A DNA stretch of 64,000 nt from Lentibacter algarum (GTDB taxonomy: Bacteria; Pseudomonadota; Alphaproteobacteria; Rhodobacterales; Rhodobacteraceae). Below the pieces are notes generated by a model, which was not told where the DNA came from, made no database searches, and was given only the letters and a program-made list of their open reading frames with translations. The stretch spans positions 744,001 to 808,000 of the forward strand of contig NZ_CP158687.1 of assembly GCF_040580765.1 (NCBI RefSeq), read 5' to 3'. The position numbers and the translations under genes were made by a program. Positions within the stretch are counted from its first letter, which is position 1. Every line of letters begins with the position of its first letter. Below, one piece after another: positions 2,581 through 12,890 of this stretch.

Positions 2581-3927
2581 ATGTCATCACACGGCGCCGC
2601 ACTTCCGATGCTCTCACGCAAATGTAAAGGCCTTACGGGCGAGGCCCATGTGCCCGGCGATAAATCGATCTCGCATCGCTCGCTTATTTTGGGGGCAATG
2701 TCCGTGGGGGAGACCCGTATTACAGGGCTTTTGGAGGGGCAGGATGTGCTCGACACAGGCCGTGCGATGCGCGCGTTTGGTGCTGAAGTTGAAGACCTTG
2801 GCCAAGGCAACTGGCGGGTTTACGGCGTTGGCGTTGGCGGGTTTACAGAACCTGACAATGTGATTGACTGCGGCAATTCCGGCACGGGCGTGCGTCTGAT
2901 TATGGGCGCGATGGCGACCACTGACATGACGGCAACCTTTACGGGCGATGCCTCGCTCAATTCGCGCCCGATGGCGCGGGTGACGGATCCGCTGGCTTTG
3001 TTTGGAGCGCGGGCCTACGGGCGGCGCGGCGGGCGCTTGCCGATGACGATTGTGGGCGCGGCAGATGCGGCGCCTGTACAATACACTGTGCCTGTGCCGA
3101 GTGCTCAGGTGAAATCTGCTGTCTTGCTGGCGGCGCTGAATGCGCGGGGCGAGAGCCAAGTTATTGAGCGTGAAGCGACGCGGGACCACACCGAGCGAAT
3201 GCTGGCTGGGTTTGGCGCGACAATCGAGACGGAAGAGACCGCCGAGGGCCGCATCATTCGCTTGCAGGGGCAGCCCGAACTTAAAGCCCAAGATATTACT
3301 GTGCCGCGCGATCCGAGCTCTGCGGCCTTTCCTGTCTGTGCGGCGATTATCACTGAAGGTTCGGATGTGCTTGTGCCCAACATTGGCCTGAACCCGACGC
3401 GGGCGGGGCTGTTTACCACGCTGATCGAGATGGGTGCAGACCTGACCTATGAAAACCTGCGCGAAGAGGGCGGCGAGCCTGTGGCTGACTTGCGCGCTAA
3501 ATTTTCCCCCAATCTCAAGGGGATCGAAGTTCCGCCTGCGCGTGCGGCGAGCATGATTGACGAATATCCTGTGCTCTCTGTTGTGGCGGCCTTTGCTGAA
3601 GGGCGTACCGAAATGCACGGCGTGAAAGAGCTGCGTGTGAAGGAAAGCGACAGGATCGACGCGATGGCCAAGGGGCTGCGCGCTGCGGGTGTCACTGTTG
3701 ACGAAGGCGAGGACTGGTGGGCTGTTGAGGGCCGTGGGCATGGCAATGTGACGGGCGGCGCGACAGTTGAGAGCCGTCTGGATCATCGCATTGCGATGTC
3801 GTTCCTGATTCTCGGAATGGCGAGCGAGCAGCCTATGCAGGTTGATGATGGTGGGCCTATTGCGACGTCTTTCCCTATATTTGAGAGCCTGATGGGCGGG
3901 CTTGGCGCTATAATCGAGCGGGTGTGA
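2581..3927 (+). CDS. aroA: 3-phosphoshikimate 1-carboxyvinyltransferase (class II EPSP synthase)
   Basis: Transfers the enolpyruvyl group of PEP to shikimate-3-phosphate, the sixth step of the shikimate pathway. The 448-residue sequence carries the class II signatures: [11 protein letters not shown] near residue 24, [14 protein letters not shown] at 43-56, and ELRVKESDR and [10 protein letters not shown] toward the C-terminus. The PEP-site loop reads GNSGTG with Gly at 101, where the glyphosate-tolerant CP4 enzyme has Ala100, so tolerance is not predicted from that position. Its stop lies one base before the cmk start, indicating an aroA-cmk operon that continues into the aldo/keto reductase gene. 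Confidence 0.95.
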
Positions 3928-4537: not shown

Positions 4538-5532
4538 CAACACGCAGGCTTGGAAAAAATGGCCCAGAGATCAGCGCGATCGGGTATGGGGCGATGTCTT
4601 TTTCGGACTTTTACGGCGCAACGAGCGAGGCGGAAAGCCACGCGATCCTTGATCATTGCCGCGATGTCGGGTTGACCCATCTTGATACCTCCAACATCTA
4701 CGGCATGGGCCGCTCTGAAGATGTGATCGGAAGCTACTTTGCGGCCCATCCTGACGCCAAGCAGGAGTTTGTGATTGCGACCAAGGCATCGATTGCCAGA
4801 GACGAAAGTGGAAATCGCATTTTTAGAAATGATCGCAAGCATTTGGAAGAAGAACTTGATAAGTCACTTCAACGTATGGGTGTCGATCACGTGGGTCTGT
4901 TTTATGTCCATCGCCGTGATCCGAACGTGCCGATTGAAGAGGTGACAGAGAGCCTTGCGGCGATTGTGAAGACGGGCAAGGCGCTTGGCTTTGGTTACTC
5001 TGAAATCGCGCCGAGCAGCCTGCGTCGAGCGGCAAAAGTGGCGCATGTCAGTGCGGTGCAATCGGAGTATTCCTTGAGCACGCGCAGCCCAGAATTGGGC
5101 CTTGTGCAGGCCTGTGCCGAACTTGGCACAGCGCTTGTTGCATTTAGCCCTGTTGGGCGCTCTTTGTTGACCGATACACCCCTGAGTTTTGAGGCCGTGC
5201 AGAGCCTTGACTTCTTGCGCGGCAATCCGCGGTTTATGCGCCCGAATTATGAGGCCAACGTGAGTGCTGCAGCCGGCTTTTGCGCTTTGGCCGCCGAGAT
5301 GGGTGTGAGTGCTGCGGGGCTGGCCAACGCATGGCTTCTGGCGCAGGGGGACCATGTGATCCCGATCCCCGGGACGCGTTCTGTCTCGCATTTGAGTGAT
5401 TGTTTGCAGGGGCGGGACGTCAGGCTGACATCTGAGGATTTGGAGCGGATCGAGGCGATCTTGCCGCTTGGGTGGGCGCATGGGGACAGGTATTCTGAAG
5501 CGCAGTGGATCGGACCTGAGCGCTACTGTTAA
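4534..5532 (+). CDS. Aldo/keto reductase
   Basis: NADPH-dependent reductase of the aldo/keto reductase superfamily; the substrate cannot be told from sequence. The 332-residue TIM-barrel protein begins with [18 protein letters not shown]. It shows the catalytic Asp and Tyr in [14 protein letters not shown], Lys in IATKAS, and His in FYVHRRDP. The cofactor loop region reads [12 protein letters not shown] near residue 275. It overlaps the cmk stop by four bases (ATGA), so it is coupled to aroA-cmk, sitting where many relatives pass directly from cmk to rpsA. It may be a passenger in that operon rather than a shikimate-pathway enzyme. Confidence 0.85.
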
Positions 5533-9363: not shown

Positions 9364-10617
9364 ATGGCCGACGATCTTTTCAACTCCTTCATGAACGGGC
9401 CTGACGAAAACGGCCGCTTTGGCGACTTTGGCGGACGGTTTGTTTCCGAGACTTTGATGCCGCTGATCCTTGGTCTTGAGGCCGAGTATGAGAAAGCCAA
9501 GACGGACCCGAGCTTTTGGGCTGAAATGGACGATCTTTGGGCCAATTATGTTGGCCGTCCGAGTCCGCTTTACTATGCTGATCGGCTGACCCAGCACCTT
9601 GGTGGCGCGAAGATTTATCTCAAACGGGACGAGCTCAACCACACGGGCGCTCATAAGATCAACAACGTTTTGGGGCAGATCCTTTTGGCGCGCCGCATGG
9701 GCAAGAAACGTATTATTGCTGAGACAGGTGCAGGACAGCACGGCGTTGCTACCGCGACGGTCTGTGCGAAGTTTGGTCTGCAATGCGTTGTTTACATGGG
9801 CAAGCACGATGTTGAGCGTCAAGCGCCAAACGTGTTCCGTATGCGCCTTCTTGGTGCGGAAGTGATCCCTGTAACGTCGGGTCGTGGCACGCTGAAGGAC
9901 GCGATGAACGATGCGTTGCGCGACTGGGTTACGAATGTACGCGATACGTTTTATTGCATTGGCACGGTCGCAGGGCCGCATCCTTACCCAGCGATGGTGC
10001 GCGATTTTCAGAGCATCATTGGTAAAGAAGTGCGCTGGCAGCTTGCCGAGCAGGAAGGCGAAGGGCGTTTGCCCGATACCTTGATTGCGGCGATTGGCGG
10101 CGGCTCAAATGCTATGGGGCTGTTCTATCCGTTTCTGGATGATCCAAGCGTGAACATCATTGGTGTTGAGGCCGGCGGCAAGGGTGTGAACGCCAAGATG
10201 GAGCACTGTGCGTCTTTGACGGGCGGGCGACCAGGCGTTTTGCATGGCAACCGGACTTATCTTTTGCAGGATGATGACGGGCAGATTCTTGAGGGGTTCT
10301 CTATCTCTGCGGGGCTTGATTATCCAGGAATTGGCCCTGAGCATTCGTGGCTGCATGATACGAAGCGCGCGCAATATGTGAGCATCACCGACAAAGAGGC
10401 ACTGGAAGCCTTCCAGCTGTCTTGTGCTTTGGAGGGGATTATTCCTGCACTTGAGCCCAGCCACGCGCTGGCGCATGTGATGAAGATTGCGCCAAAGCTG
10501 CCACCCGAGCATATCCTTGTGATGAATATGTGTGGCCGCGGGGACAAAGACATCTATACGGTCGCCAAGCACCTTGGCTTTGATATGTCTGACACAGAAG
10601 GGCGCGAGGCGGACTAA
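9364..10617 (+). CDS. trpB: Tryptophan synthase beta chain
   Basis: PLP enzyme that condenses indole with L-serine as half of the alpha2beta2 tryptophan synthase. The 417-residue protein has the PLP lysine K98 in [12 protein letters not shown] and the phosphate loop GGGSNA ([12 protein letters not shown]). It also has the [11 protein letters not shown] catalytic segment with the glutamate of AETGAGQ, and the C-terminal MCGRGDKD. Length and N-terminus (long [20 protein letters not shown]) are normal for alphaproteobacterial TrpB1. Its alpha partner, trpA, is not next to it but at 20366-21157 on the opposite strand. A strong terminator follows. Confidence 0.97.
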
Positions 10618-10636: not shown

Positions 10637-10668
10637 AAAAGGGCTCATCATTGGTGAGCCCTTTTTTG
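10637..10668 (+). terminator. Intrinsic terminator of trpB
   Basis: GGGCTCA (10641-10647) pairs with TGAGCCC (10655-10661). It is flanked by AAAA upstream and six T residues downstream, so it could also act on the other strand. Confidence 0.9.
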
Positions 10669-10759
10669 TTGCCTATAACTCGGGTTTATGTGGCTAAACC
10701 GCATGTGTAGTTTGGCCAACTTAAACCTGGGGCCTATAGAGGATTTGAGCGAGATGCAC

Positions 10760-10815: not shown

Positions 10816-11367
10816 ATGAAACGCATTCTTATGACCACGACAGCACTGGTTCTTGGCTTCTGTGTACATGTCAACGCCGGCACTTTTGAAGAGGCGGCTC
10901 TCAATACCTTTCAAGAGCAGGGCTATTCCAACATTGATGTCAGCACGAGCGGCAATCAAGTGAATGTGCAAGCGGTCAAGGAAGGTATTGTCGTGGATAT
11001 CACCTATGACAGCGACACAGGTGCCGTGATCTCGCAGGACGCCTCTTATGCCGATGACAACGATGGTCACGATAGCAGTGACAGCCATGATGATAACGAC
11101 AGCCATGATAGCAACGACAGTCACGATGATAACGATGGCCACGACAGCAACGACAGTCATGATGATAACGATGGCCATGACAGCAACGACAGTCATGATA
11201 GTAGCGATGATCACGGGCGTGGTGACGGTGAAAGTGATGGTCACGACAGCGATAGCCATGATGGCCACGGCGGAGATAGCGACAGCGACGGCCACGGCGG
11301 AGACAGTGACAGTGATGGCCACGGTGGCGACAGCGACAGTGATGGCGATAGTGACGGCGACGACTGA
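10816..11367 (+). CDS. Exported PepSY-like protein with Asp/His/Gly/Ser-rich repeat tail
   Basis: A 183-residue protein with a signal peptide (about residues 1-21, cleavage near VNA-GTF) and a single PepSY-like half-domain (about 22-75: FQEQGYSNIDVS and ITYDSDTGAVIS). About 105 residues of low complexity follow. The tail has 12-residue units of the type DNDGHDSNDSHD (about 79-130), then three 9-residue GHGGDSDSD units encoded by 27-bp DNA repeats (11263-11343). The tail carries 14 or more His among many Asp, suggesting divalent-metal binding; that is inference. A paralogue without most His follows, then a membrane-bound LuxR-type regulator, all on one strand. Confidence 0.7.
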   Translation: MKRILMTTTALVLGFCVHVNAGTFEEAALNTFQEQGYSNIDVSTSGNQVNVQAVKEGIVVDITYDSDTGAVISQDASYADDNDGHDSSDSHDDNDSHDSNDSHDDNDGHDSNDSHDDNDGHDSNDSHDSSDDHGRGDGESDGHDSDSHDGHGGDSDSDGHGGDSDSDGHGGDSDSDGDSDGDD

Positions 11368-11425
11368 GGCTGCGCTTAGCGTTGCTTTGCCAAGTCAGGC
11401 GTGATCCGTTAGCGTCGCGTTGATG

Positions 11426-11469
11426 AAAACTGTATGCTGGCATTCGGAAAACGGATGCCAGCAGTTTTG
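11426..11469 (+). terminator. Hairpin between the two PepSY-repeat genes
   Basis: GCTGGCAT (11436-11443) pairs with ATGCCAGC (11455-11462). The outer arms AAAACT (11426-11431) and AGTTTT (11463-11468) extend it, with a four-base bulge. It may be a weak terminator or an mRNA-processing hairpin just before the start of the second gene. Confidence 0.4.
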
Positions 11470-11475
11470 TAGGAC

Positions 11476-11952
11476 ATGGGAATGTATCGTCGAATTAGCA
11501 TCATATTAACCGTCCTAGTTGCTCTGTCGTTCGCACCATTTGCGGCACATGCAGACAGCAAAGGTGATGCCTTTGCAGCCAAAGTGGCAAGCCAGCTCAA
11601 AGATCTAGGGTATTCCACTGTCGAGGTGTCGCGGACCTTTTTGGGCCGTATACGCGTCGAGGCGACGGGATCTGCTGGCGAGCGGGAAATCATTTTCAAC
11701 CCGCGCACTGGCGAGATACTGCGAGACTTTTCAAAAGCTGGACATGGTGGGCTCTTGACGTTGCCTTCAGGCGATGGGGGAGAAGATGGCAACGACGTCG
11801 GTGGCGATGAAGGCGGTGACGACGGTGATGGAGACGATGGTGGTGACCACGGCGACGACGGTGACGACGGTGGTGATGATGGTGGTGACGATGGTGGCCA
11901 TGGCGGTGACGACGGCGACGGTGACGGTGACGGAGATGGTGGGGATGACTGA
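11476..11952 (+). CDS. Exported PepSY-like protein with Asp/Gly-rich tail
   Basis: A 158-residue paralogue of the preceding protein. It has a signal peptide (about residues 1-26, ending FAAHA) and a PepSY-like segment (about 27-88). The segment keeps the pattern LKDLGYSTVEVS, RIRVEATG, EIIFNPRTGEILRDF seen in its neighbour (GYSNIDVS, NVQAVK, DITYDSDTGAVIS). The tail of about 60 residues is nearly all Asp and Gly (GGDDGDGDD type), very acidic, and suited to binding calcium or other cations. Conserved heads with different repeat tails point to duplication and then tail divergence. Start at ATG 11476 (MGMYRR); ATG 11482 is a possible alternative. Confidence 0.65.
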   Translation: MGMYRRISIILTVLVALSFAPFAAHADSKGDAFAAKVASQLKDLGYSTVEVSRTFLGRIRVEATGSAGEREIIFNPRTGEILRDFSKAGHGGLLTLPSGDGGEDGNDVGGDEGGDDGDGDDGGDHGDDGDDGGDDGGDDGGHGGDDGDGDGDGDGGDD

Positions 11953-11985
11953 TCAGATCAACTCGCCAGAAGAGCGGGGCAACGC

Positions 11986-12501
11986 ATGAAACAGGGTAAA
12001 TTGATTGCTCTCTTGATGCTCCTGCAAGGGGCCTGCGCTGTTTTCTTCGTGTTTGATATTCTTGCTACGCTTCTGGGTCTGCGCGCTACTCCTATTAGTT
12101 GGCAGACGCGTGAGCTCTTGGAAATTGGTGCCGCAATCGGGCTTGTTCTGGGTGTTATTCTGGGCTGGATCGCGCTGCGGCGCTCGCTCAATCGATCACG
12201 CCGTGCGGAAGAGAGTCTGCGCACTGTACGCCGAGAGTTCAGGGATCATCTGGAACAGCAATTTGTGTCTTGGGGGCTGACACCGGCCGAGCAGGATGTT
12301 GCCCTCTTTTCTCTTCAAGGGTTTTCTATCGGTGAAATGGCGCGTTTGCGCGACAGTTCGGAAGGTACGATCAAGGCGCAAAGCAACGCTATTTATCGCA
12401 AAGCTGGCGTGAGTGGGCGGGCGCAACTGCTGAGCTTGTTTATTGAAGATCTGCTTGTTCCCGAACCTGATATAATAGAAAACAACGTCTGCCAAGCTTA
12501 A
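11986..12501 (+). CDS. Membrane-anchored LuxR-type HTH transcriptional regulator
   Basis: A 171-residue protein with two N-terminal membrane helices (about residues 7-30 and 46-64), a short charged linker, and a C-terminal LuxR/GerE-type HTH (about 98-155). HTH pieces visible are LTPAEQDVALFSLQGFSIGEMA and EGTIKAQSNAIYRKAGVS, split around the turn. There is no receiver or autoinducer domain, so any signal would come through the membrane segment or the short loop between helices, which faces the periplasm if both ends are cytoplasmic. It starts 33 bases after the second acidic PepSY-like gene on the same strand. It therefore probably controls, or responds to, these exported proteins. Confidence 0.75.
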   Translation: MKQGKLIALLMLLQGACAVFFVFDILATLLGLRATPISWQTRELLEIGAAIGLVLGVILGWIALRRSLNRSRRAEESLRTVRREFRDHLEQQFVSWGLTPAEQDVALFSLQGFSIGEMARLRDSSEGTIKAQSNAIYRKAGVSGRAQLLSLFIEDLLVPEPDIIENNVCQA

Positions 12502-12512
12502 AGGCTTGAGCT

Positions 12513-12890
12513 TTAACCTTGGGGCTCAGCGTGCTCTTGAAGAACCCTCAGTGGCACAATGTCGAGTGCGCGGGCGTGCGTGGCTGCCAGCGAAACTTTG
12601 GGGGCGCAGCCTTCGTCATGGGCTTGCAGGAAGCGGGCGGCGCAAAGGCACCAACTGTCGCCTGCCTTAAGGCCCGCAAACCCGAATTCGGGGCGCGGTG
12701 TGGAGAGATCATTGCCGACGTATTTAGAGAAGGCGAGGAACTCGTCTGTCATGATGGCACAGACGGTATGGGAGCCTGTATCTGCGGCGCAAGTGTTGCA
12801 AGCGCCATCGCGGAAATAGCCTGTGAGCGGATCAGAGGAACAATGCGCAAGCGCGCCGCCGAGGACATTTATCGATGCATCAGGTGTCAT
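12513..12890 (-). CDS. DUF2237 family protein
   Basis: A 125-residue cytoplasmic protein matching the DUF2237 family almost end to end. Visible motifs are NVLGGALAHCSSDPLTGYFRDG, CNTCAADTGSHTVCA, MTDEFLAFSKYVGNDLSTP, FGFAGLKAGDSWCLCAAR and LEATH-like LAATHARAL, read here as separate blocks along the whole length. Several conserved Cys suggest metal binding or redox chemistry; no function is established. It overlaps the upstream serine hydrolase by ATGA, so the two are co-translated. Confidence 0.85.
   Translation of the reverse strand: MTPDASINVLGGALAHCSSDPLTGYFRDGACNTCAADTGSHTVCAIMTDEFLAFSKYVGNDLSTPRPEFGFAGLKAGDSWCLCAARFLQAHDEGCAPKVSLAATHARALDIVPLRVLQEHAEPQG

Follow-up and report, generated by a model that had tools for sequence, protein, structure and literature searches.

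The 64,000-nucleotide stretch of Lentibacter algarum DNA analyzed here (contig NZ_CP158687.1, positions 744,001 to 808,000; the window) contains on its plus strand a module of three co-directional open reading frames (ORFs), which encode two small putatively exported proteins, P1 and P2, and a predicted membrane-anchored regulator with a LuxR-type helix–turn–helix (HTH) domain. P1 (10816–11367) is 183 amino acids long, P2 (11476–11952) is 158 amino acids long, and the HTH protein (11986–12501), the gene of which begins after a gap of exactly 33 bases, is 171 amino acids long. The module is flanked by trpB (9364–10617) and by a convergent DUF2237 gene (12513–12890). A hairpin with a T-run, which was recognized by eye at about 10640–10669 of the plus strand, resembles a terminator and sets the module apart from trpB. 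No kinase that could serve as a two-component partner was found among the identified neighbors, which are trpB, P1, P2, the DUF2237 gene, a β-lactamase-fold hydrolase gene, and pth. An earlier note, made from the sequence of the window, had described the same three genes at the same coordinates; the ORFs confirmed this layout, and the arrangement was found to recur across the family.

The N-termini of both P1 and P2 resemble signal peptides, as judged by eye. The comparison with Pfam detected one unit related to PepSY_2 (PF13670) in each protein, with a score of 16.5 bits (E 0.0083) for P1 and 18.3 bits (E 0.0024) for P2, and the comparison of family profiles using hhalign showed that the two units are homologous (probability 99.0%). 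A sequence search of the PDB with the P1 and P2 profiles returned nothing useful; the S3 matches spanned a short stretch. The low-complexity tails of the two proteins differ from each other. The 100-residue tail of P1 contains 38 Asp, 22 Ser, 18 Gly, 14 His, and 6 Asn residues, and its 12- and 9-residue repeats were also visible in the DNA as periods of 36 and 27, while the 70-residue tail of P2 contains 31 Gly and 26 Asp residues. The Asp codons are mixed inside both tails (20 GAT and 18 GAC in P1, 16 GAC and 10 GAT in P2), which fits the upkeep of aspartate itself and not a recent repeat of DNA. The Ca2+-binding nonapeptides of repeats-in-toxin (RTX) proteins have the consensus GGxGxDxUx. 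The assignment of the P1 tail to this class was rejected, because its 9-residue unit, GGDSDSDGH, has Ser at positions 4 and 6 and no hydrophobic position.

The AlphaFold2 model of the HTH protein, with a mean predicted local distance difference test (pLDDT) score of 82, contains two hydrophobic helices. One uninterrupted helix spans about residues 39 to 95, and the LuxR-type HTH is located at the C-terminus. Domain searches detected no receiver domain in its 171 residues, and neither these searches nor the model showed a periplasmic sensor domain. With 16.4 bits (E 0.0071) the protein of the window does not reach the LuxR/GerE (PF00196) cut-off of 23.5 bits, while this domain is present in most of the 120 listed HTH relatives, and the family profile matches the HTH of VraR, which is a solved LuxR-type structure (E 6.5e-5). 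Residues 67–160 also match NF047608 of NCBIfam, the LIC13292 family regulator, with 62.5 bits (E 4.9e-17), which is below the 200-bit cut-off; as judged from this match, the protein is a relative of that family and not its member. These data agree with the earlier description of two paralogous exported proteins, each with a signal peptide, a single PepSY-like unit and a tail of its own kind, followed by a receiver-less LuxR-type protein with two membrane helices.

To describe the conservation of the module, 80 named loci were used, which are the best 80 of at least 559 places confirmed by an HTH-alignment scan, ranked by similarity of the HTH; most of them are labeled as Rhodobacteraceae or genera thereof. 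In 79 of the 80 loci a PepSY-like gene, recognized with profiles that were trained iteratively on the ORFs of these very loci, is located directly upstream of the HTH gene on the same strand, with a median gap of 30 bp. The exception, L109, is a locus that starts 11 bases into its contig. The ORF starts were the first possible ones, and so some gaps are negative (range −230 to 114 bp). Two or more PepSY-like genes are present in 52 of the 79 paired loci; since the labels P1 and P2 mix between the PepSY profiles, the counts given here use gene position, P2 being the gene that adjoins the HTH gene. The flanks are also alike, with trpB upstream in most loci and the DUF2237, β-lactamase-fold hydrolase and pth genes downstream in many. 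The earlier note had made its proposal depend on the genes being neighbors in other genomes as well, and in these 79 loci the PepSY-like gene and the regulator indeed stand together. In the Rhodobacteraceae the named close relatives of P2 are mostly annotated as hypothetical protein. A few loci (e.g., L045, L085, and L097) contain before the operator a short extra PepSY-like ORF without a signal peptide, and in L044 a third small exported acidic protein (4564–4845) directly follows the HTH gene.

The linkage was also seen in a sample of 198 genomes of the family, one per genus, in which the search for P2 scored at most 27 candidates per genome. Of these genomes, 137 contain the HTH and 96 contain the P2 unit; all 96 P2-positive genomes have the HTH, and none of the 61 HTH-negative genomes has P2 (Fisher p ~1e-23, with genomes that are not independent). 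The distance between P2 and the HTH, measured in the 45 highest-scoring P2 genomes out of 96, was 396–855 bp in every one. A class-wide sample of 289 genomes yielded the P2 unit in 6, three of which belong to the same family. In two genomes of one other family, an acidic-tailed P2-like protein is paired with an HTH that is 33–36% identical; one of these tails uses the letters D, H, S, G, and N. A further match at the class level, in G315 (E 7e-4), appears to be spurious, as its locus, L188, contains no HTH. On a quick tree the trpB-linked type needed four label changes, so that a single origin of this type is not shown.

The tails of the exported proteins are acidic in most loci. The fraction of Asp and Glu was at least 0.30 in the tails of 59 of the 79 P2 proteins and 48 of the 52 proteins encoded next upstream, and the median net charge was −25 for the former and −46 for the latter. 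More than 5% His was found in 7 of the 79 and 12 of the 52 tails, respectively, and Cys is nearly absent (one of 79 and one of 52). The length, letters and composition of the tails differ strongly among genera. A start resembling a twin-arginine signal (RRx followed by two hydrophobic residues) was seen in 43 of the 79 P2 proteins and in one of the 52 next-upstream proteins (L031–L110), and P2 may be exported by the twin-arginine translocation (Tat) route.

The alignment of the promoter regions revealed a conserved candidate operator. In most loci the stretch between trpB and the first exported gene contains the sequence GC-N-TAAACY-NN-RGTTTA-N-GC, which is followed by a weaker second copy about 21 bp further on, and, also in most loci, by a third element, TAAACC...GG-N-CAATGG, at +47. 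Of the 58 parsed stretches that separate trpB from the first PepSY-like gene (window included; trpB end present, length 60–700 bases), 41 contain an exact core palindrome, TAAAC-N4-GTTTA, as compared to a shuffle mean of 0.005. Of the 47 stretches that separate the first two PepSY-like genes, 4 contain it. When all 80 loci were counted, with 1.6 kb before the HTH gene taken where no trpB end was seen, the exact palindrome was present in 57. Of 60 exact sites, 59 were located between trpB and the HTH gene, even though that stretch makes up 106 of 623 kb, and the remaining one precedes a second PepSY–HTH pair in L099. In the window, the first site, ATAACTCGGGTTTA (10675–10688, plus strand), is a degenerate copy with 8 of the 10 consensus bases. 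It is followed on the same strand at +20 by the half-site TAAACC (10695–10700), which has the offset of the degenerate second copy in a 47-row alignment, and at +47 by the promoter-proximal element TAAACC...GGCCTATAG (10722–10739). An operator-like block with changed spacing was recognized by eye in L016 and L017.

To see how far the operator extends beyond the module, 20 genomes, hand-picked among the P2-positive ones, were scanned with a stricter form of the pattern. The scan gave 21 exact sites, of which 15 were directly upstream of the module operon and six were elsewhere, as compared to nine in a reversed-pattern control; hence there was no excess. Two of the six (L169 of G100 and L175 of G134) have no PepSY or acidic gene nearby. 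A wide regulon is thus not supported for the exact pattern, although degenerate sites could escape such a scan. The near-exclusive placement of the operator at the module promoter suggests one dedicated promoter that would be self-regulated, and it supports the expectation of the earlier note that the regulator acts on the gene pair.

Further information about the regulator came from 40 second or paralogous HTH loci, which include three trpB-linked ones and one that is also counted as L014. The PepSY–cytochrome b561–HTH operons among them resemble the module in their HTH family, PepSY partner and related promoter element. A PepSY gene is located beside the HTH gene in 35 of the 40. In contrast to the module, 26 of the 40 contain a cytochrome b561 gene (two tested genes match Pfam Ni_hydr_CYTB), and their PepSY protein is mostly short (about 81–95 amino acids where the start is clear), with no long tail. 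The genome of the window has such a paralogue itself (L111, G000:C1:457500-464500), with PepSY at about 2500–2760, cytochrome b561 at 2815–3339, and the HTH gene at 3352–3855. In hhalign comparisons the short PepSY proteins were matched by the P1 profile with a probability of 98.6% and by the P2 profile with 96.4%, and two tested short proteins score 46.9 and 43 bits against PepSY_2. A matrix of the promoter-proximal element, derived from trpB-type loci only, exceeded its 95% shuffle threshold in 13 of the 26 promoters of the paralogous operons (1.3 expected, shuffle maximum 4) and in none of 26 control stretches; a full palindrome common to the cytochrome paralogues was not found, only this element. 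Because the DNA element accompanies the HTH family even where the neighboring genes are different, the HTH protein is the likely binder of the predicted operator.

Two other features of these relatives were observed. A lytic transglycosylase (SLT) gene is located near the HTH gene in nine paralogue loci (L113, L117, L126, L132, L134, L137, L139, L140, and L143), which suggests a cell-wall link of that paralogue branch. Loci L123, L124, L125, L131, L133, and L190 represent a further PepSY–HTH type, with tails that abound in Gly, Asn or Ser in place of Asp.

The conservation of the HTH protein was examined in a set of 125 unique HTHs adjoining a PepSY gene, from which identical genes had been removed. 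The most conserved residues were L53 (99%), Q14 (98%), F21 (97%), E46 (96%), and D24 (90%); at position 46, five of the 125 proteins have Q and the other 120 have E. By positive-inside reasoning, an orientation with both termini in the cytoplasm would place D24 and E46 where the two helices reach the periplasm. In L014, L016, and L017 the HTH protein has R at position 46 and G at position 24, and the upstream gene encodes a different small exported protein. As these cases are few and related, the link between positions 24 and 46 and the PepSY partner is a lead only.

The strongest indication of the ligand came from loci in which a different domain takes the place of the PepSY-like unit. In L191 (genome G092) the HTH gene and an exact operator are present and there is no PepSY gene; instead, the locus encodes a protein that combines an N-terminus resembling a signal peptide with a pair of EF-hand loops and a poly-Asp tail. 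This EF-hand unit, used as a query, matched 45 of 394 genomes of the family; since the query came from a module locus, orthologues in modules were partly expected. Among 20 EF-hand loci that were fetched, six have the gene directly after trpB, in the slot of P1 (L199, L204, L206, L207, L208, and L197, the last being the same place as L191). The EF-hand protein, P2, and the HTH protein are encoded in a row in L199, L204, and L207, L197 has the EF-hand protein and the HTH, L208 ends after P2, and in L206 no HTH was seen on the locus. Hence, the EF-hand form occupies the P1 slot in modules of five other genera (L191/L197, L199, L204, L207, and L208), and it is a minority form of the module. When the tails were trimmed, five of six units (those of the five modules and L206) passed at least one Pfam EF-hand cut-off, and that of L204 was below. 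At the level of sequence, a Ca2+-type EF-hand and a PepSY-like unit are exchangeable before a similar tail and behind the same kind of promoter, next to the same kind of regulator. This swap in the P1 slot makes Ca2+ the best candidate for the ligand of the exported proteins.

The remaining 14 of the 20 loci (L198, L200–L203, L205, and L209–L216) encode exported-looking EF-hand proteins elsewhere in the genomes, many of them with acidic tails, and no HTH or PepSY gene was found on these 3-kb loci. The exported EF-hand proteins of the family thus resemble P1 and P2 in having a signal-peptide-like start, a small predicted cation-binding unit and an acidic tail, and differ from them in the unit itself and in mostly lacking an HTH or PepSY neighbor. 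In L029 (477–2996) an exact operator, an exported protein with a D/H/S/G tail, a PepSY-like protein, the HTH, and a cation-efflux (cation diffusion facilitator, CDF) gene follow each other in a row; the last gene (Pfam Cation_efflux, E 2.2e-45) is located directly after the HTH gene in this extra copy. A general link of the module to cation efflux was rejected, because a relative of this gene was found only in L029 among the loci examined.

One-component regulators of the ToxR and CadC kind are DNA-binding proteins located in the inner membrane, which act without a kinase. The HTH protein differs from them in having a LuxR-type HTH located C-terminally of two transmembrane helices, and in the lack of a periplasmic sensor domain. 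Among the PepSY proteins that have been studied, the binding of uranyl, iron or lanthanides was reported (reviews PMC8963506 and PMC11845868). UipA of Microbacterium is a uranyl-binding envelope protein encoded next to UipRS, and it resembles the module in combining an envelope PepSY protein, which has an acidic cation-binding surface, with a neighboring regulatory system (PMC8963506). It differs in that UipA crosses the membrane once, has PepSY domains in tandem and is accompanied by a two-component system, while the proteins of the module have one PepSY-like unit, a long acidic tail and a signal-peptide-like start, and their partner is a membrane HTH protein without kinase or receiver. Lanpepsy (LanP) is a periplasmic PepSY protein that binds cations through Asp and Glu; it has two PepSY domains, and in the passages seen there is no mention of a long acidic tail or of a membrane-bound HTH partner (PMC11845868). 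The tandem PepSY arrangement of these metal binders was not seen in P1 and P2, each of which has one unit.

In the searched part of the open-licence literature PepSY was not found combined with Rhodobacteraceae and LuxR, with cytochrome b561, or with a membrane-bound LuxR-type protein, and nothing joined PepSY with LIC13292 or "membrane-anchored LuxR"; the papers found on PepSY and Rhodobacter sphaeroides, judged by title, dealt with no such module. The parts of the system are of known kinds, and their assembly, with an operator of its own and exchangeable PepSY and EF-hand units, is undescribed in the literature searched, which agrees with the earlier note, where no described system of this make-up was known.

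We propose that the module is an autoregulated envelope system, which would serve as a buffer and sensor of divalent cations, probably Ca2+; we assign to this reading a probability of about 0.55. P1 and P2 would be exported, and each would join a tail that is long, disordered and polyanionic to a small folded unit, either PepSY-like or, as in some genera, consisting of two EF-hands. The tails would bind many cations weakly, thus acting as a buffer, and would pre-concentrate them. The HTH protein would be located in the inner membrane with both termini in the cytoplasm, and its second transmembrane helix would extend as one long helix into the C-terminal DNA-binding domain. Ahead of P1 it would bind TAAAC-N4-GTTTA and the two further copies that follow at distances of about 21 and 47 bp, and would in this way control its own operon. 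The input could be the amount or the cation loading of the exported proteins, which would imply their contact with the regulator, or the free cation, and it would be perceived at the periplasmic face of the membrane, where D24 and E46 are predicted to be located.

Several observations weigh against this proposal. Regarding the gene set, G228, of the same family, has between trpB and the DUF2237 gene a P2-like protein without an acidic tail (L187, 1441–1815), and no HTH was found on this 3.2-kb locus. In L192 (G172) trpB is followed by operator remnants and by an HTH gene, the product of which has Q46 as judged by eye, but no gene for an exported protein could be seen in between; this locus possibly represents a decayed module. 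In L014, L016, and L017 the HTH gene is inverted between trpB and the DUF2237 gene, and its exported neighbor has neither a PepSY match nor an acidic tail. E46 was also present in six of ten unique HTHs without a PepSY neighbor (Fisher p 0.002, relatedness ignored). The exported proteins of the window do not reach the curated PepSY_2 cut-off of 24.3 bits, so that they can be called PepSY-like only, and the comparison with the PepSY fold (Foldseek, VIA) gave for P1 and P2 scores not above those of unrelated rows. The P2 tail is short in L035, and six of the 79 P2 tails are not acidic (below 15% Asp and Glu). The exact operator is missing in 23 of the 80 loci and in two of the five EF-hand modules (L204 and L207, in contrast to L197, L199, and L208). 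The copy in the window has two mismatches, accompanied by further half-sites at 10695 and 10722; in the genome of the window, sites with at most one mismatch numbered 34 as compared to 112 in the reversed-pattern control, and the sole exact match falls inside a coding sequence. In its own genome alone the operator of the window would have gone unnoticed. Only two of the six untrimmed EF-hand proteins passed a Pfam cut-off, and the EF-hand motif used was found in none of the modules of the 80 named loci. The high His content of the P1 tail in the window and the Zn-type efflux gene of L029 hint at a transition metal, and cytochrome b561 in the paralogous operons hints at redox. The idea of the earlier note, which was an envelope buffer or sensor for Ca, Zn, Ni or Cu, is upheld only in part: it gained from the EF-hand swap and from the L029 efflux gene, while the acidity of the P2 tails is not universal.

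The rival explanations overlap in part, and the odds assigned to them do not sum to one. The HTH protein could be an ordinary local regulator of a cytoplasmic or membrane signal, with the exported proteins as its output only and no signal sent back. The confinement of the operator essentially to the module promoter, the architecture of the HTH protein without a periplasmic sensor domain, and the occurrence of E46 away from PepSY genes are all consistent with such a role, but the HTH relatives elsewhere, few of which are trpB-linked, still adjoin PepSY genes in 35 of 40 loci, and the loss of PepSY in L014, L016, and L017 is accompanied by R46 and G24, in cases that are few and related. We consider this explanation doubtful, though worth keeping in mind. 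It is unlikely that the module serves a transition metal or redox function, with exported proteins that bind Zn, Cu, Fe or similar ions and a regulator that answers metal or redox stress in the envelope. The cytochrome b561 operons, the efflux gene behind the exact operator of L029, the His-containing tails, including that of P1 in the window, and the UipA and LanP precedents (PMC8963506, PMC11845868) would all fit such a function, while the restriction of the efflux gene to L029, the near absence of Cys, and the fact that the domain replacing PepSY is a Ca2+-type EF-hand argue against it.

The very high negative charge of the tails combined with little conservation of sequence, as expected for a charge-only role, could also mean that they are a polyanion shield that traps cationic antimicrobial peptides, polyamines and other polycations, with a regulator that senses membrane damage. 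As this would leave the folded EF-hand or PepSY unit and its linkage to the regulator unexplained, it appears quite improbable. Finally, the strong variation of tail length and composition among genera raises the question of whether the tails are functionless repeat expansions, next to genes kept as neighbors by chance. For the linkage this is refuted by the statistics of gene neighborhood and operator, and the mixed Asp codons and the presence of acidic tails in most loci make it hardly credible for the tails as well.

If the reading as a cation buffer and sensor is correct, its more specific form would be a family-wide one-component system for envelope calcium, in which the exported PepSY and EF-hand proteins serve as sensory subunits, their loading is read through the acidic pair of the HTH protein, only the own operon is adjusted, and the regulator family has been rebuilt with cytochrome b561 for another input; this form is tentative, and we would not yet bet on it. 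How bacteria sense and hold calcium in the envelope is poorly understood. The module unites in one small locus two target proteins, their promoter, and the predicted operator and regulator, and about half of the sampled genera of the family have its P2 unit. If true, the proposal would add to the known ways of envelope signaling an arrangement that relies, in place of a two-component system, on exported binding proteins and a membrane HTH protein without a sensor domain.

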